Positions 41,532-51,740 of a stretch of DNA of 64,000 bases are shown in pieces (positions within the stretch are counted from its first letter, which is position 1; every line of letters starts with the position of its first letter). Location: contig JASAND010005702.1 in assembly GCA_030248195.1 (NCBI GenBank), positions 1 through 64,000 of the forward strand, in the 5' to 3' direction. This stretch comes from Trissonchulus latispiculum (lineage: Eukaryota > Nematoda > Enoplea > Enoplida > Ironidae). The notes beneath the pieces were generated by a model that was not told the DNA's origin, ran no database searches, and saw nothing but the letters and a program-made list of their open reading frames with translations. Both the position numbers and the translations under genes were made by a program.

Positions 41532-42060
41532 AGGCTTTTTTGCGTCCGGATGTCGGTCTCGACGCAAAGTATATTATCCGAACCTAATGAATCTTTAACG
41601 GGGCTTTGGCTAGAAGCAACATTATTTCGGCGGAAAACTTACTTTGGTATAAGTTTCAACTTTAAATGCTTCCAGCACCAATTCGGTATTTTCTAAAATT
41701 TTTTCGGTTTCTGGGGCTCGGCCCCGACACCTGGGACCGATAAAGCTAACGCGGGTTTATTTTTGCTATCTTCAACACGTGAAATAAACCGGAGCTTCGG
41801 CTTTGATAACATCGATCCCTCGTGTTTATCGCACTTTGTCATGGAATGCCAAGGTGCAAGGACATGTCTCAGTCTGGTTTGTTGAGTTGTTATCCACCCT
41901 GTATCCATATCAGATCTTTTTGAACTCGTAAATTTCATATCAACAAGTAGAGCTTGACTATGTGAATAATCGTGAACATTAATGCTGTTCTCATTCAACA
42001 GCCCAGGCAGGATCAGAAGTGGTAGAACCACGAAATTAACAAAATTTGTGACTGAACACA
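41531..42060. mobile_element. Diverged fragment of the hAT-like element at 49-50 kb
   Basis: It starts CAGGCTTTTTTGCGTCC, like CAGGGTTTTTTTTGCGTCC at 49242. It then shares GACGCAAAGT, TTTAACGGG, CAACATTATTT, AACTTTAAATG.TTCCAG and TTTCTGGGG.CTCGGCCCC. The right end was not found, so the copy is truncated. The minus-strand frame at 41693-42061 is probably incidental. Confidence 0.5.
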
Positions 42061-42529
42061 ATATCCAAATTATTTGATTTCTCTAGGGTGGTTTTTTGCA
42101 AAATGATACACAAACGGCAATTTTTGAATTAATGCAAAACTACCAGTTTCAACCACAAATAGTCTGTCATGCATACAATTTACAATGAATTTAGATTTAT
42201 TCAATCGTAAACCGATTTATTCAATCGTAGTTCATGGTATTTACAAATGCTTCACCGGTTTTGCCCTCGAACTGCATTACAATAGTTTATGCATTACGAT
42301 ACTAGACATTATGCATACATGTCTTCTGCGGTTATTGATACCGACTTTATTCAGAATTCAAGAATTTGCAGTTACGTTATGTTATGGTTAATATTTAACC
42401 TTCCAACAAGAATATAAGTAATACGACATAGCAGCGTAATGAGTGGAACAGCACAAGAAGTGGCAGTCGAAATAGAGCTATTATGAATTTCTGCAAAGTA
42501 GGGGGCTAGTAAAAGGTCAGGTTATGCCG

Positions 42530-42960
42530 AACATCGACTGATATTACTCGCCCCCATGATTACTTCTAAAATTAATGGTAGCGAGACGGATTTTAAATTC
42601 AGATAAAGTTTTAGCTAATGCAATATTGTCAGGCAAACTATTCCAAAATTTTATGATCCTTTCACTGAAGAAATGTTTTTGAATATCAATCCCATTCTAG
42701 TTAGTTGTCAGATTCAAACTGTCTCCACTATTAACTCAGTACTGTTAAGTCTGAAAAGCAACATACAGTCCAAATCAATTAAGCCGTATCAATTTTTATA
42801 AACCATTATTGGGTCCCGACGTAGACGTCTTGCCTCTATAGTTTCCAAATTTAAATGTACTCAAACGTTCTTGGCAACAAAATTGCGAGTATATTCGAAT
42901 ACCTTTAAACTATTTCCATAACTCTCACATCCTTAATGAGGGCCAGTATAAAAAGCGTAC
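42530..42960 (-). pseudogene. Decayed CR1/Jockey-like LINE reverse transcriptase C-terminus
   Basis: On the minus strand, frame-broken peptides follow the pattern that ends many CR1/Jockey-group ORF2 proteins. TIEARRLRRDPIMVYK is followed by YGLIDLD, then FKNIFSVKGS, F.I.CLTI, LKLYLNLKSV. Several stops interrupt it. No other LINE domain is attached. Confidence 0.5.
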
Positions 42961-43460
42961 GCGCACGTAGACGAAAGGTATAATTTGAGAACGCTGACGC
43001 GGACGCGTGGTTTTAAACCAGGACGCGGAGTTCTATGATTTTATTGACAAACACAAACACTCAAAGAATACATACTTCGCATAACTTACGGTCTCACAAC
43101 ATAATTTACATATTATGAAATCATTTCAATTACAATCCTTGCAGTCGTAGGTTATTGCCAACATACATTCATATATACAATGGTTACAATATACAGGTTG
43201 TCTGCACAATATGGATTTGCCTTTATTATTTACTGACATTGACAACAACAATTTTACGAACAGGTTGGTCTGTACATTGTTTGGTGCTATTCAATCGACG
43301 GCAAAGTTTTTCTCTGCCATTTTATTAGTTCATGCCAGATATTGCATACACTCTTTTATTGCCCTAACTAGCTGAATTCCAATGGGGCATTGTACCGCTA
43401 ATGTTTAATGTTCAGATTTCTAGGTCGAGAATTCTTTCAATTCCAGAAGTCCATGTTCGC

Positions 43461-46400
43461 TCATCTCGAATATTCCAAATTCACTGCAAAATTTTCTTGT
43501 GCATACACATTCGCGTTTCGTGCAATCCGTCCCAGAGACCTGACAAAAATGTCCCAAATATCTACTATTCTTTGAAAATTTCTGTACGTAACTCGAGAAT
43601 ACCTAATTGCCCATTGAGCCTGCTGAATTAGTATGTTCAGATTTGTAAGTAATTTTGGATTTCTTCTGACGACGATGCCCAAAAGCTTTTCGTGAGTTGT
43701 CAGGTCTCTATTAACGAATTGCTGCGAAGGCGCCGATACAACTTTAATTAAGTTATTAACTTTGTTCCAAAAAGGTCGAACTCTAGAACATTGAGCGATT
43801 GCGTGCACTAGATCTTCTGATATGGAAATTTGAAAAGTTTGAGCGCAGAAATCACAATTTTCCGACGGATTTAATCTCATCTGACATCCTCTTTTATTGG
43901 TAACTAAAACATTGTGAACGATTTTCAAATGATCGTCTAACGCGATACTTTCCACGAACTTAGTTTTCATGGACCCCCAAATGTACTCCCAGTCCGTTCT
44001 AGGAATTGCTGGGAATTTTTCTACCCAGTATTCCATTCTAGAGCGGGCTTTATGCGCAAATTTTTGTAGAATTATGGCCTCATGAAGCTGTTTAATTTTG
44101 ACACCGGACGGCGGATGCTGGGTACCGCTAATGCTAATTAAATTAGGAGTTATTTCTAAATTTAAGATTAAAGTTGCTTTTCGAATTTCCTTATAAAAAT
44201 GAGGCACTGTCGCCATATTTACAGATCTCATGTTTTGATCTTCAATTTGACTGTAGAAGTAGTCGAAAATTGGGTGCCATGCCTGAGCTGCACCCAATTT
44301 TCTTCTAATTAGAATTGCTAATCTCTGGCTCAGGATTCTGTATTCAGTGTGGGGAAATACTATTCCGCCTTTAGTCCTTGGCAAACATGCACACTCGTGA
44401 TTCAGAATAACTCTTTTTATTGGATGCCAAACGTAATTTTCCATCCTCTTTTTAAACGTCTCCAACACATCTCTGGAAGGACTGATAAACCAGGTTGTGT
44501 ACCAAAGTTCTGAAAGAGTATAGGTCATGAGGCTGTTCACTCTGGCATACGCTGAAGAGGTTACGGATGGTGTCAAAGCTTTTATAGATTCCGCAATTTC
44601 ATCAAATTTTTCCGTAGTTTTCATGTTTTGAATCCCATTCTCAGTTAGATAAATTCCAAAAACTTTGACTTCTGTTTTCAAATATGGTAAAGTTCAGGTG
44701 GAACGTCTTCTCGTCTAACTCCACTACAAAGAAGAAGGGCTGTTTTCTCAATTTTCAGTTTTCCTCCAGAGATGTGTTCAAATTCTTCGTACTTTTGAAA
44801 AACTTTTGTCACTGATTGGAAGTCGCGCAAAGTAAAATTTGTGTCATCTGCGTAGGCTGTAATTTTGTTTTCTCTTCCTAAAACCGGTATTCCTCGCACC
44901 GAGCCGCTTCTGCGAATGTGGTTTAAGAAAGTGCATAGAACATACAAAAGTGGCGACAAAGGGCATCCTTGTCTGATGCCCCTTTCTAATTTGAACGGCA
45001 GAGACATGTAACCGTTGATCAATAGTGAACTTTGAACAAAACCTTTTTTATAGATTGCGCCAATCCAGCGTCTTATTTTAGGACCAAACCCAAATCGCTG
45101 AAGCACCATTTTGAGAAAATCCCACTCGACTAAGTCGAAAGCTGACATTTGATCGACCGAAAGGAAAATGCAAGGCTTGTGTTTATGCCTTGCGTAGTCT
45201 AAAGTTCCTAATAAGCTCAAAATTCCATCTCTGATGTCTCTGCCGTTCACAGCGCAAGTTTGATCCTGGTTTATCAAAAATGGCATTGCTACTGACATCC
45301 GATTAGTTAGAACTTTAGCAAAAATTTTGTAGTCTACGTTTAACATGCTGAGGGGGCGCCAGTTTTTCCTATCTGCTTTATCACCTTTACCTTTGTACAA
45401 AAGAGAAATAATACCCATGTACATGTCTTCTGGCAAAATTCCGGTTTGTAAAATAGAATTAAAAATTTTTGCTAACCATGGCGCAAAGAGTTCGATACAA
45501 GAAAGATAGAATTCAATAGAAAGTCCGTCTTTCCCGGGGACTTTCTTTAGAGCAAACTGCCTAATCGCCTTTTCTACTTCTTCGGTTGTAATTTCTGCAT
45601 CTAGCTCTTGCATCAAATCGTCTGGTATACTAGCATATGTTCTTTCTAAAAAAGCAGCTGTCTTTGCTGGATCAATTCCAGAACTGCAGAATAAATTTTG
45701 GTACTGTTCTCTCATTTCTGTTAAAATTTTGAGATTGCCGAACACTTCAGTTCCTGAATCTGTTTTTAGTGAATATACATAACGCTTTTCGCCTTCCTTT
45801 TTTCCATCTTTTTGGCTTTCACTATAGAGATAGTATCTAAAAGTTTCTCCGATTTGTGGGCACGCGCCAAAGTTTGTTCAATTTCTGCCGACTCAATTTT
45901 CCTCAAACTTGCCTTCAAACTTTTTTGCATCACAGAGTCATTTTGGGATTGCGCTTCTTTGAGTTGATTTTCAAGGCTTTGCTTTTGGCTGTGTTTTCTT
46001 TGAGCGATAATTCTGCTATGAAATTTAAATAAATTCCTGGCTTCGGATTTAAACCAAAGCCAATTTTTGAGAATGTCCGCATTTGTTTCCGACTGAGTGA
46101 AACGATGTTGTGCGTCAAAACGTAAAGTTGCGTAGTCTTCTGAAAAGAAAAAATCCGAAAAGACGGTCGTATTCATTTTCCAATTCCGCGACGCTGAAAA
46201 AGTAGATTGTCCACAAACTTGACAGTCACTAGACTGTGATCTGAAAAACTTACAGGATTGTAGGTAACAGAAATGAAGGCTCCCAAGTGCCTTTCTGCTA
46301 CATAAATGCGATCTAATCGACTCCTGCAATTTCGATTTACGCTTTTGCAACTGAACTCTTTTTTGTCCGGATACTTTTCTCTGAAAACATCAACAAATTT

Positions 46401-46988
46401 GTATCTCTCTTCTAGCGTTTTGAACTCATCTTTGCCCTTCATAGTGGAGTTTAACACACCTTGATCAACAACAGGTGAATCTCTGTCGAGTTGTACGTCA
46501 GAAACAAAATTAAAGTCTCCACCCATTAATAAAACAGCGTCATCACAAACTCTGGCTTTTAAAATTTCCAATAAAGATTTGAAAAACTGTGGTCTTTTAT
46601 TGCACGTTGTTGGTGCGTAGATATTAATTAAAAAAGCAATCCTCCCACCAATTTTGGCTTTAACAAACAAGATTCTTCCTCCCTCTTCATAAATTAATTC
46701 AAATGACCCCGCAAGTGTACGACTTATCAAAACACAGACTCCTCCACCCTGCTTAGCATTAAAATACGAATGGTACGTTCGAAATTGAGGGCTCATAACT
46801 TTTTCAAAACGTTGGTCTGATTTCATAAAATTTGTTTCTTGAATGTAGACTATATCCGCCGTTTTTAAGTTAATAAAAAGCTGATCGACTTTTTTGGAGT
46901 ATCTCTTCAGACCATTTGCATTAATGCTAAGAAGGGTGAGAGGAGCCATAATTGTTAACATAAGTGCTACCAACCAAAGTTCCTTCAT
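43461..46988 (-). pseudogene. LINE ORF2: APE endonuclease and reverse transcriptase, three frame breaks
   Basis: The endonuclease (46988-46173) is intact by motif: SINANGL, QETNF, GGDFNF, RLDRIYV and SDHSLV, in the order expected for APE-type nucleases that nick the target. The frame breaks near 46175 and a linker rich in Lys/Gln follows to 45766. After a second break the reverse transcriptase (45745-44678) has motif A SVDQMSAFD, IRQGCPLSP and the catalytic AYADDTNF. A third break near 44690 leads to the C-terminal region (44681-43461) with a CDFC..H.....C type motif. ORF2 starts at ATG 46988-46986, whose last two bases belong to the TGA stop of ORF1 (ATGA). This suggests translation by termination and reinitiation. 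Confidence 0.85.
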
Positions 46989-48606
46989 TTGGATCGTTTG
47001 TCTGCCGCATCTTCACTGGGAGTTCTGGGACGCTTTGGGTTCTTCGCCTCGGTTCGGATGTGGTCTTCGTACTCCTTCTGGAATTCCGGCACCCGCAGCA
47101 TCTTTATCCGTAGCATCGTCAGCATATCACCCAGAATGTTCTTGCCTCTCCAGTTCTGGTGGTTGAAAATCTGAGGATCCGTATAGGCAATCCCTGCTCC
47201 CCAAAATTCGTCATTTGGGTTCCCCTCCACCAATCTATGGCCATTAGTGGTCAGAAGGGCTAGCCGGGCAAGTGGGTTTTGATTGAACTTGGCCGATATC
47301 CCTTGCCACATCGCCTCGAATTCCCCCTGCGCCTCCACTCACCTATCCTTTCCGGTTTCTCCTCCACCTTCCCGCCCAAGGATTTGGCACCTTTGGGGAG
47401 CGGGCTGTCCAAAATCTTGGAAGCCGTTCGCTCGTCGCCCATGAATTTGGCCTTGGACCAGAAATAGTAGTGCTCTGTTGAGAGATATTCGAGTCCGTCC
47501 AAAGTAAAAGGCGCAATATGATGATTGCTGTAGGGAAACTTGTGAGTGAAAAAGGGGATCATTTTCTCTTTATAGGTGTCCCCATAGATTGCCCGTTTAG
47601 AATTCATCAGGGCCACCCAGTTCACCTGTTTCCCCTGCAGGAGCACTGACTGGTCCGCATCCTGGGCCCCCTTGTTTCCCGAGTTGGCCTCCTCACCTGG
47701 AGTTTCCCGCTCCTCTGACTCATCGACTGCCGACAAGACATCCATGAATTCCACCGAAGAGGTCCTCCTAATGGAATCAGGGCGTCCCAGGTTCTCCATC
47801 CCATCGGGCTCGGATTGGGCTTCCTCTTGGCCAACATAGGCACCTTCGGGTACGGGTTTGGCCCCTACCGTTTCCCATCTTCGCCCGGATTTGCCAACAT
47901 TGGATCCCGGTTTGACAATAGCTTCCGGATTTTCGCAGTGACTTCGGTGGTGACCTTCCCCAAAACAGCGAAGGCACCATTTCCCCCAATTTGGATACCA
48001 AATTTGTACTCGCTGAGGGGTGCCCGTCCCTTCCGGTAGGTATGAGGCATAACCCGGTATTACCTGATCCCTTCCTGTCCTTACCATCACTGATCTTCCA
48101 CCATATCTGATAGGGGTCCTCCTTCCCGTTGCCGTCTTATAATAGGTCCACCTGTAGGGCCCAGCCACCTCCAACCCAAGGTCCCGGAGCCAGCAACTGA
48201 CGTGGGCCTCAGTGTCCGTGATGGGGATATCATAGAGATAGACAGCCCGTATCTGTAGGCGCCTACGCTCCTCTTCCCGGGGAATTTCCATCGGGGCCAG
48301 GATCTGTCCCATTTTGATACCAGAATCCGCCATTCTATCCCTCAGTTGTTTAGATGTGAAAATCAACTTTAAATGGAATTTGCCTGCTTTTCTCACATAT
48401 TGAGGAAGGCAACCTTCCTCATTGACCTCCATCAAAAGCTCAACCAATTGTGCAACAGACTTTTCCGAGTATTCGTTCGGAATGCTCAGATAACCTGTTT
48501 TTTCTAATAAGTCCATTTTCAGATTTTCATTTTGGACCGTGTCCTGACTTAGTTGACCATCTTCGATGTTATTCTCATCTCCCATGTTGGAAGCCCAATC
48601 GGGCAC
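46985..48606 (-). pseudogene. LINE ORF1: RNA-binding region, CCHC knuckle and NADAR domain, one frame break
   Basis: The first frame runs from 48606 (GTG; the first ATG is eight codons on) to 47260. Residues about 36-205 resemble the RRM-like region of Tx1-type ORF1 proteins. A CCHC knuckle, CLRCFGEGHHRSHC, is at residues 211-224, followed by an acidic linker. From residue 349 a NADAR (YbiA/DUF1768) domain begins: IPFFTHKFPYSN, LDGLEYLSTEHYYFWSKAKF, GAKSLGGKV. Its second half continues in another frame from 47338 to 46985: ISAKFNQNPLARLALLTTNG, LVEGNPNDEFWGAGI, WRGKNILGDMLTMLR. The break is at about 47338-47345 and fits loss of one base. Conserved positions (EHYY, DEFWG.G, GKN.LG..L..LR) are kept. 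NADAR domains act on ADP-ribose-linked substrates. Confidence 0.8.
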
Positions 48607-48667
48607 TTTTCAGATTGTCTTTGTCTCCCTAAATCTAGGGAGACTCCGACCCAAAGAAAAAGGAGTT

Positions 48668-48693
48668 GTTGTAACCCAAATCTGGGTTACAAC
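48668..48693. other. Perfect hairpin in the LINE 5' region
   Basis: An 11-bp perfect stem (GTTGTAACCCA and complement) with a 4-base loop AATC lies 60-90 bases upstream of ORF1. It could be part of the element's 5' UTR. Confidence 0.6.
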
Positions 48694-49117
48694 AAAAAGG
48701 AATGTAGGTTGAAAGCAGACTATTTTGCAGTATGAATGAAAGCTTCCAAATCTGGATGCCTCTGCACAAAGATCGGTGGCAGACGAATCACAGGATTCGC
48801 ACCACTTTCGAACATCGACATGCATTCCGTCCCAAAATGTTTAAACAAATGATTTTTAAATGGCTAATATGCTAATTCTAGCCTTAAAGCTTACAGGAAA
48901 GTTCTCCAAGATTGCAGCCTAGCCTTAATCAGTGTGATTACATACAAGTGCAGCATAAATAAAGCAGGTTTCATAAAAGACACTTTCTCAGCAATGCAAT
49001 TCGCGGCAACGCAAGTTATAATTCTCTTACTTTCTCGGGAATGTAAGAAATGAGTGTTGACCTTTCTCAGCAAACAAATTCTCGACAATGCCTTTCTCGG
49101 CAATGTGCATTCCCGGT

Positions 49118-50864
49118 GTCACAGCCTAATCTTTCCCTCGGCTGATTTTTCCCCGGGGTGAATTTTCTTGGGGGGAAAATTTCGCTGTGACAACGACATT
49201 TTAAAACATGGTTAAGATTATGTTAATTTATATGATACACACAGGGTTTTTTTTGCGTCCAGAAGTGCGTCTGGACGCAAAGTTTCTTATCTTGACGCAA
49301 CGAAATTTTAACGGGACGCAAACTAGACGCAACATTATTTTGGGAGAAAATTCACTTTTGTAAAAGTGAAAACTTTAAATGTTTCCAGTACCAATTTTTT
49401 CATATTTTCCAAAAATTTTCTCAGTTTCTGGGGGGCTCCGCCCCCCAGACCCCCTGGTGTTTTCCACTATGTCACCGAATGTCACAGCTTTGTAATGCGT
49501 CAGTACTTGTTGAGTTATTAGTTGAGTTATCCACCATGTTGAGTTGAGTCATCTAGTTATGTATCGATACATTACATAGCCCATTATTAATAAAATTTGT
49601 AGCCGTAGCCGAATATCCAAATTTTTGGGATCCTGTAATGTAATGAGGTTCATACAATTGCATTAGCACAGTTTGTAAAGTCTAAATTTTATTCTTGACT
49701 GGATTTTCAAAACATTTTCAGCTTCTGCGGGTTAATCCCTTAATTACCAAAAGTCAACCAAATTTGCAGAGTATCCAATTTTTGGTTTGGTTCATTTAAA
49801 GCATTCTAGCGCAGTCATCGAAAAATATTTGTCCTGAAGAAATTCAGGCATTAAAGGGTTAATCAATCGTATTCGTAACCAACGTTAATATTTCACTGTT
49901 TTTGCCTTTGATTAATACTGCACTACGCATCGCATGCACGCTCTTTGTTTAATGATACTGACTTCTCAAAATGAAAACAACTCAAAACTCTATAATTTAC
50001 AAATGTAATTTACACAAAAATGCATTAGGTATTTTAGCTAAATGTATCTGATGACAAATTAATCTTTTTAATCATTTTCGTTACGGATTTATCCGTAATT
50101 TCAAAAAAATTCTCCAACTTCTGGGGGGCTCCGCCCCCCAGACCCCCCAGACCCCAAAAATTGGTCAGGATATGTGCTAGATACAACAGATGCTAATTAT
50201 ATAAATCATTTTGAACATTTGCATTACGGATATTTCCGTAATCGCAAAAATTTTCTCAACTTCTGGGGGGCACCCCCCCCCAGACCCCCCGTCGTGTATA
50301 TAGGGCATATTTTACATATTTTACATATTTTGTAATCGTGCATTACTGTTCGGTAGCATCACCGTTCTAAGTACTTTTTCATACGATTAAATTATGTTTC
50401 ATTGAAGAAATAATCGGCATTTTTATAAAGAATACAATTTTTGCATATAAAAAACGCTAAAACAATAATTTTACCTGGACGCAAAATTTCTTAACGGGAC
50501 GCAACTTAAAATTAGCTGGACGCAAGGTTGACGCAAATCCGAAAACCAAAAAACCCTGGATACACACTGAATTGCTTGCGGTAATATGTTTACTGTATTC
50601 AGATTTCATTTCTGTCACACACATGCCATGTCGCATACACTATTTTTTCTGGGACAACTTCAGGCTAATTAGTTCAATTTTCAGGTCGAATGTTCAGTGT
50701 AGGCTGATTTGTCCTGGGGGAAGATTATCCTAGGTTGATTTATCCGGGGGGAGAATCATCTTAGGCTGATTTTTCCGGGGGGGGGGGAATTAAAAGCGGA
50801 AAAAACAGCCTAGGCTTAAATTAGTCTAGGCCGATTTTTCCGGGGGAAAGATTAGGCTGTAACA
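49118..50864. mobile_element. Older TIR element interrupted by the hAT insertion
   Basis: TGT.ACAGCCTAATCTTTCC stands at the left (from 49118) and its complement at the right (to 50864). Between the hAT right end and the right terminus lies a short tandem array (about 50690-50860). Its units contain TAGGCTGATTTWTCCGGGGG and GATTATCCTAGG-like words. The left part is only about 115 bp and itself ends in GCTGTGAC. No target duplication was found. Confidence 0.5.
49242..50558. mobile_element. Non-autonomous hAT-type element, 1317 bp, with 8-bp target duplication
   Basis: The ends are CAGGGTTTTTT...AAAAAACCCTG, flanked by perfect copies of GATACACA at 49234-49241 and 50559-50566. An 8-bp duplication and CAGGG termini are typical of the hAT superfamily. 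Short GACGCAA/TTGCGTC words repeat near both ends, as hAT subterminal binding sites often do. Inside are three GC-rich inverted words around CTGGGGGGCTCCGCCCCCCAG (49430, 50120 and a degenerate one at 50262). No transposase is present, so movement would need a full-length relative. Confidence 0.88.
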
Positions 50865-51740
50865 TCGGCAATGCAATTCTCTAACTCTAAGCATAATTCA
50901 AATGTTTTGTTCACTTTGAAAGAGTAAACTGAGCAAAGGCCTCATTTTAACTACCTTCAAAAGCCAATTCAGTTAAATAGCGGCCAGGATCAAAAACTGC
51001 CATCAGAATATGGTAACGCCGCTCCCTTCCTACAAGTGAAATAAGATGGAACTTACCGCTTGAGAAGTAAAACGTGGGATAAACTGATAAAACGGACTAC
51101 AACCATCCAACCCGACAACCCGACTGTTCTCAGGCATCGTACTACTTAATTGGTCTAAACTAAGGATTTTCTCACTGACAAAAATAAGTTCTGGCTTGAC
51201 AGGTCATTTATTGTCCCAGCTCCTAGAGGCCATCTTTACTACATAAATTTTAGTTGGGCTCAAAAAATAAGGACTTGGAAATTAGACTACTGTTCTCATT
51301 AAATAACAAATGATTTGTCATTTTTGACACTTCCTTGTTCTCTCACGGCGCTTGTGTTTGCATTTTACTATCTAGCAGAATTTGAAACATTTGCCTGCCT
51401 ATCCGACAATTTTAATTTCTACCAGATAGATAAATCACTTGAAATTACGACAGATAACTGGTGTGTCAGATAATCAAATATAAGATTAATCATACTTTGC
51501 TATCAGGCAGGAATTTTATGCCAGATATCTGGCAAATTTGTTACTTGGGTTCGACATATTCAACACAAAAATATACATAATGTTCCATATTTCCATTTTG
51601 CAATAGTTTACTTGCCACTTAATCCTAAATTTTACTTTTCAAATGTTCAACAAACAACTTGGAGCATATTCCTTTATTTAGAGATTGGGTTTAGATCTGA
51701 TATAGTCCTCTCCAGTTGGTGGTACTGAACACGAAGATTT
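50865..51740. other. No gene seen
   Basis: There is no recognisable coding sequence or repeat structure apart from the flank of the next LTR element. Confidence 0.4.

Follow-up and report, generated by a model that had tools for sequence, protein, structure and literature searches.

A NADAR domain fused to the ORF1 protein marks a LINE clade in the genome of the nematode Trissonchulus latispiculum

We analysed a stretch of 64,000 nucleotides (nt) from the nematode Trissonchulus latispiculum (assembly GCA_030248195.1, contig JASAND010005702.1, positions 1 to 64,000 of the forward strand; here called the window), which contains a long interspersed nuclear element (LINE) on its minus strand. When the frames of the window were scanned against Pfam-A, open reading frame 1 (ORF1) of this LINE proved to end in a C-terminal NADAR domain and to be followed by an endonuclease (EN) and then a reverse transcriptase (RT). 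The features are:

46985..48585, minus strand: ORF1 of the LINE, open frames, with the ATG at 48585 and the stop at 46987-46985
47935..47976, minus strand: CCHC zinc knuckle of ORF1 (CX2CX4HX4C), CLRCFGEGHHRSHC, read from the sequence
47359..47538, minus strand: N-terminal half of the NADAR domain, profile positions 11-79 of 163 (Pfam PF08719, E 7.5e-7)
47102..47320, minus strand: C-terminal half of the NADAR domain, profile positions 90-161 (Pfam PF08719, E 3.3e-18)
46985..46988, minus strand: ATGA, in which the ORF1 stop overlaps the ORF2 ATG, read from the sequence
46236..46931, minus strand: apurinic-type EN of ORF2 (Pfam PF03372, Exo_endo_phos, E 2.7e-10)
44732..45379, minus strand: RT of ORF2 (Pfam PF00078, RVT_1, E 9.2e-26)
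43461..44693, minus strand: C-terminal piece of ORF2 up to the stop, open frame

The C-terminal half of the NADAR, in frame 47338-46985, carries RLVEGNPNDEFWGAG and GKNILG and scored 66.9 bits, over the curated cut-off of 35.1; the N-terminal half, in frame 48609-47260, holds the catalytic Glu and Lys within EHYYFWSK and scored 30.0 bits, under that cut-off. Joined with an X, the two halves matched two NADARs of the YbiA class with known structures, 8bau (E 2e-9) and YbiA itself, 2b3w (E 1.2e-8). The original prediction, made from the letters alone, had described a LINE ORF1 whose CCHC knuckle runs into a full-length NADAR pattern. Pfam, the solved structures and the relatives described below bear out this architecture, and the motifs EHYY, FWG.G and GKN.LG..L..LR are all there, but in the window copy the domain is split over two frames. 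ORF1 is read here from 48585 to ~47335 and from ~47326 to 46985, with the frame change located between ~47359 and ~47320; a programmed frameshift at this break was rejected, because relatives keep a single frame across it. Given the ATGA overlap of the ORF1 stop and the ORF2 start, the NADAR lies at the true C-terminus of ORF1. The N-terminal part of ORF1, in which Pfam names little besides the knuckle, is presumed to be RNA-binding on account of that knuckle. Among 5.8 billion proteins searched with frame a of ORF1, 4747 candidates came up, none at E 1e-3; an AlphaFold model of this frame alone (pLDDT 33) was not used.

The Exo_endo_phos match falls in frame 47012-46173 and the RVT_1 match in frame 45877-44678, whereas the C-terminal piece of ORF2 had no Pfam match at E 0.01. 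Because the RT is far nearer to L1 ORF2p (8sxt, E 5.6e-48) than to R2 (E 3e-21) and the EN matches the L1 endonuclease (8sp5, E 1.8e-11), we place the element in the L1/Tx1 group, an assignment that rests on the comparison of L1 with R2. The window copy is decayed: four frame changes occur over 43461-47338, one splitting the NADAR and three in ORF2, which consists of four open pieces overlapping in different frames. Homopolymer runs of at least five bases occur close to three of the four breaks, so that assembly errors are possible beside real decay. No exact direct repeat of at least 12 bases was found between the flanks 48590-50900 and 42300-43470, and the ends of the element are not fixed.

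To follow the element across the 734 Mb assembly, we searched it with the window RT, which gave 4372 first-look candidates; 104 of these were scored, among them the window itself. These RTs are 100% to 49% identical to that of the window, and 25 of them lie in open frames of at least 1180 residues without a stop. Twenty stretches upstream of such RTs were sampled, spread from 97% to 50% RT identity. The NADAR is present in ORF1 of 19 of the 20 (in one, L040, only as a C-terminal scrap), the EN comes directly next in 18, and in 14 ORF1 with the whole NADAR forms a single open frame of 508-611 residues. L037 was the sole sampled relative without any ORF1 match; ORF1 of the nearest copy, L032 (97%), is split at a place other than the window's, and ORF1 is broken or incomplete further upstream in L035, L045 and L046. 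Thus, the frame change in the NADAR is private to the window among the copies read. As 19 of 20 sampled relatives hold it in ORF1, the NADAR belongs to the element as a regular component, and the order ORF1-NADAR-EN-RT marks the LINE clade. The original prediction had called for a search for other copies with this order and had named their lacking the domain as grounds for abandoning it; such copies were found, and all but one of those sampled have at least part of the domain. For profile work, eight of the 14 intact ORF1s were aligned. All eight have NADAR matches and their joint profile matches 8bau with E 1.7e-19; outside the NADAR, this profile gives only a weak match (E 0.016), and weak zinc-knuckle matches were seen in four and three of the eight (best E 0.0047 and 0.0018, respectively).

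Within the 14 intact ORF1s, the NADAR is about as conserved as the RNA-binding part (mean pairwise identities of 55.0% and 53.6%, against 33.4% for the linker between them). The ratio of nonsynonymous to synonymous substitution rates (dN/dS), proposed earlier as a check on the NADAR part, could be used for three of 91 pairs that passed the divergence filter, all among L036, L038 and L039. It amounted to 0.12, 0.13 and 0.09 for the NADAR, to 0.04-0.06 for the RNA-binding part and to 0 to 0.4 for the linker; in this small sample of three pairs the NADAR is under purifying selection. Residues named in PMC11543638 were mapped onto the LINE NADARs through alignments (here and below, published sources are cited for the parts of their text that were available). 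E43, K75, W89, E125, D130 and W133 are each present in 14 of 14 intact relatives, and the K50 position holds Lys in 11, Arg in two and Gln in one. The window copy keeps the catalytic Glu (E43) and Lys (K50) and has Glu at 125, Gly at R79 and Glu at R93. The R93 position is basic (K or R) in all 14 relatives; an earlier impression to the contrary, from an alignment in which 0 of 10 LINE NADAR rows had a basic residue there, is thereby overturned. Glu at 125 is typical of the YbiA class, with Asp in the BC4488 class and His in phage NADARs (PMC11543638). Judged by profile match, Glu125 and E43/K50, the LINE NADARs belong to the YbiA subfamily.

Several further features surround the window copy. 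Two strong hairpins at 48622-48695, just 5′ of ORF1 (GTTGTAACCC-AGATTT-GGGTTACAAC and GTCTCCCT-AGATTT-AGGGAGAC), both have AGATTT as their tip, and the surrounding 181-nt region folds with z -4.5. The tip pattern alone is no rarer than chance (seven matches in the window at one mismatch, a count reached by 11 of 100 shuffles). An Rfam scan gave no match at gathering score, and a snoRNA-like match near the 5′ end (E 4.3) was taken for chance. The GC content at third codon positions within 43461-48585 shows a sharp step at the ORF1/ORF2 border (0.45-0.64 in ORF1, 0.33-0.39 in ORF2). A 148-nt repeat flanks the LINE in the same orientation (41536-41683 and 49249-49396); at 77% likeness it is too diverged to be a target-site duplication.

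The LINE clade is not the only carrier of NADARs in this genome. A search for the family gave 2478 first-look candidates, the best 150 of which were scored and all passed the cut-off; flanks were fetched for 20 of these. The window's EN or RT was found in none of the 20, within the stretch fetched. Eleven loci (L012-L015, L019-L021, L024, L026, L029, L031) have Polinton-like neighbours encoded on the same strand, namely a chromo-integrase, an A32-like ATPase and a capsid-like protein in varying completeness (one such gene each in L024 and L026). In fuller loci such as L012-L014, the NADAR is flanked by the packaging ATPase on one side and by the capsid-like gene on the other. At seven other loci (L016, L017, L018, L025, L027, L028, L030), a long part resembling a 3′-5′ exonuclease, with DTEG and further conserved Asp, precedes a C-terminal NADAR. 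Both are joined in one frame of ~690-730 residues in L016, L017, L025, L027 and L030 and lie in different frames in L018 and L028; a kinase-like ORF is found near all seven and a Gypsy-like pol near five, a picture of a retroelement carrying unusual cargo. The two remaining loci showed a weak kinase match only (L023) or no neighbour match (L022). Pfam families in the flanking ORFs scanned were Chromo, rve, Pox_A32, RT_RNaseH, Integrase_H2C2 and Pkinase. The exonuclease label corresponds to PF01612 at E 8.8e-5, just under the cut-off, in one of four sequences and at E 0.17 in another, with no match in two. No Pfam family exceeded its cut-off in the capsid-like and DNA polymerase B (PolB) pieces, which we presume to be such from their likeness to Polinton proteins. 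A piece resembling Polinton-type PolB by eye, similar to frames in L012-L031, also lies in the window at 3-1359.

Beyond this genome, nine metagenome proteins (P0001, P0002, P0003, P0005, P0008, P0013, P0014, P0017, P0019) join a part resembling the ORF1 protein (ORF1p) of L1 to a NADAR. All nine have E43, eight have E125 (His in P0014), the K50 position holds Lys in seven and Arg in two, and R79 is found in none. Distances in the ORF1 and NADAR parts agree (Mantel r 0.76, p 0.004); this agreement rests on one close trio, as it is lost without P0002 and P0003 (r 0.28, p 0.16). Further proteins (P0022, P0024, P0025, P0026; P0031-P0033) show the NADAR fused with an RPB7-like part recognised by eye and with a domain of the cytidylyltransferase type, PF01467. 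No relative was confirmed in IMG/VR scans with A1, P0001 and P0013 or in GTDB genome scans with A1 and P0005. With P0005, IMG/VR yielded three loci matching the NADAR part only; in the two examined, L001 and L002, the NADAR is a stand-alone frame.

Shared origins were examined in NADAR trees of 30, 44 and 49 rows. In the 49-row tree, each of the three types of the host genome forms one group, with support of 100/99 for the LINE clade, 95/85 for the Polinton set and 100/99 for the exonuclease set. A single group for all host-genome NADARs, that is, LINE, Polinton and exonuclease types together, had p 0.188 with 44 rows and p 0.031 with 49 rows and is disfavoured by the latter. A single origin of all LINE NADARs had p 0.148 (30 rows), 0.042 (44 rows) and 0.077 (49 rows). 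The partial sequences P0027 and P0031-P0033 were left out of the trees, as were the presumed near-duplicates L013, L014, L017, L018, L022 and L028 in the 44-row tree and P0024, P0026, P0030 and the window row in the 49-row tree. The latter used nine of the 14 intact LINE relatives, and in it P0019 and the LINE clade joined as long branches.

NADARs in retrotransposons have been noticed before. PMC12477816 describes a NADAR in a Gypsy lineage of Ectocarpus. For several Tx1 LINE families of Crassostrea gigas, the same paper mentions 'divergent hits' to ORF1, which apparently are NADAR domains as well. The oyster elements share with ours a presumably Tx1 kind of LINE and a YbiA-family NADAR in ORF1; the comparison is by description only, as the available text gives no copy numbers, selection or active site for them. 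Since a NADAR in ORF1 of Tx1 LINEs is already in print, the window LINE is of a known kind, and the original prediction was right to allow for earlier notice. The Ectocarpus element is likewise a retrotransposon with a conserved NADAR, but it is a long terminal repeat (LTR) element of a brown alga with the NADAR in Pol. Among the matches listed in our literature search, which mostly lay outside subscription journals, there was no account of a NADAR in L1-type ORF1p, in a Polinton or joined to an exonuclease. Comparable captures of an enzyme into an accessory ORF, common to several element classes, are the esterase ORF1s of CR1, RTEX and L2-type LINEs and the enzymatic ORF3s of bdelloid retroelements (PMC5408684); these differ in their enzymes and substrates.

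L1 ORF1p binds its own RNA. In the explanation that we favour, and to which we give a little less than an even chance, the window holds a decayed member of a large clade of L1/Tx1-type LINEs whose ORF1p-fused YbiA-class NADAR is a hydrolase that removes ADP-ribose-type adducts from the RNA or complementary DNA (cDNA) of the element. By coating the RNA of the element, ORF1p would carry the NADAR on the ribonucleoprotein (RNP), where the tethered domain would most likely cut an N-glycosidic ADP-ribose-type adduct off the RNA or nascent cDNA. Guanine-linked ADP-ribose would be the best-founded candidate adduct: NADARs remove ADP-ribose from guanine, as shown for a Phytophthora nicotianae NADAR (PMC11543638). 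Its removal might counter a host modification or repair damage, and the host writer may be a CARP-1-like enzyme. Six edible clams show guanine ADP-ribosylating activity, and CARP-1 was cloned from one of them (PMC11209040); action of NADARs on CARP-1-type products is assumed and not confirmed, according to PMC11543638. The LINE NADAR shares its domain family and the catalytic Glu and Lys positions with the NADAR of DarT1-NADAR toxin-antitoxin pairs (PMC11543638), from which it differs in being of the YbiA class, with Glu instead of Asp at 125, in the loss of Arg79 and in the lack of a DarT match in the host. The data show the domain, the order of the parts, the clade, purifying selection in a small sample and the retained catalytic residues; RNA binding by this ORF1p, enzymatic activity, the substrate and a counter-defence purpose are inferred.

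Several observations weigh against this explanation. R79 contacts the pyrophosphate in the solved ADP-ribose complex (PMC11543638). None of the 14 relatives retains it (G in seven, D in three, E in two, H in two), nor does any of the ten LINE NADAR rows of a separate alignment; with this contact gone, the ligand may differ from the known one. The K50 position is Gln in L051, Ser takes the place of the Gly that follows W133 in ten of 14 relatives, and the dN/dS values come from three pairs inside one subgroup. No DarT (PF14487) candidate was found in the 734 Mb host genome, window included, in a search whose control gave a match in one of 14 genomes and in which other writers were not sought. 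The trees lean towards separate NADAR captures by the three element types, with weak backing, and LINE and exonuclease-type NADARs held together were not rejected (p 0.136, 49 rows). Of the overall reading put forward originally, the ORF1-NADAR fusion has stood, now with a whole clade of that order added to it; protection of the LINE against host ADP-ribosylation fits the known NADAR action (PMC11543638) and the kept catalytic residues but, with Arg79 missing and no DarT match, is not established.

Rather unlikely, in our view, is that the NADAR serves ordinary processing of element RNA, acting on its cap, its 5′ end or on NAD-derived adducts, instead of counter-defence. Its model would be SNA-3, an animal NADAR protein acting in nematode trans-splicing, which interacts with the cap-binding/ARS2 complex and is inactivated in vivo by mutation of key NADAR residues (PMC9303266), and a role in processing RNA intermediates was proposed in PMC12477816. 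Yet SNA-3, a host gene with three NADARs described from nematodes only (PMC9303266), has no known chemistry either, and this genome also has NADARs on Polinton-like DNA elements, which have no obvious need for processing of RNA intermediates. The changed Arg79, together with a place on ORF1p that would make the NADAR part of the RNP, could also suit a non-catalytic reader that recognises ADP-ribose on chromatin or on nicked DNA and directs target-primed insertion. This we hold to be improbable, since binding alone would not need the hydrolysis residues, which are largely kept, and loss of the phosphate contact should weaken binding first.

Less probable still is a NADAR that clears protein ADP-ribosylation (e.g., of ORF1p) or, like YbiA, reactive riboflavin-pathway intermediates. 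The best NCBIfam model of the window's C-terminal half is the riboflavin-intermediate N-glycosidase TIGR02464 (58.8 bits, under the cut-off of 73.7), as it is for the five metagenomic fusions scanned, and the residues critical in YbiA, named via PMC9303266 and mapped to E43, W89, D130 and W133, seem kept. A metabolic clean-up enzyme offers no plain benefit to a selfish element, however, and in the literature covered, as far as its text was available, no report was found of a NADAR acting on protein-linked ADP-ribose. The broken NADAR of the window copy might finally suggest a one-off capture or chance fusion, now a passenger; this is refuted by the 19 of 20 relatives holding the domain, and purifying selection in the pairs measured speaks against a passenger, leaving it hardly any probability.

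Returning to ADP-ribose removal from element nucleic acid, we propose more tentatively, and with some doubt, that it is a general counter-defence of mobile elements, for which NADARs were captured, probably separately, by Tx1-like LINEs, Polinton-like and Gypsy-like elements and elsewhere by L1-type ORF1 proteins. If true, the host should possess a system that marks guanine, or other sites in the nucleic acid of invading elements, with ADP-ribose; a CARP-1-like enzyme (PMC11209040) would be a candidate. As NADAR chemistry is known from bacterial toxin-antitoxin work, host ADP-ribose marking of invading nucleic acid would be directly testable, and naturally intact LINE copies as well as two further element classes, all in one genome, offer material for such tests. 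LINE ORF1 proteins are mostly regarded as chaperones of RNA; those of an entire clade have here retained an apparently catalytic domain.
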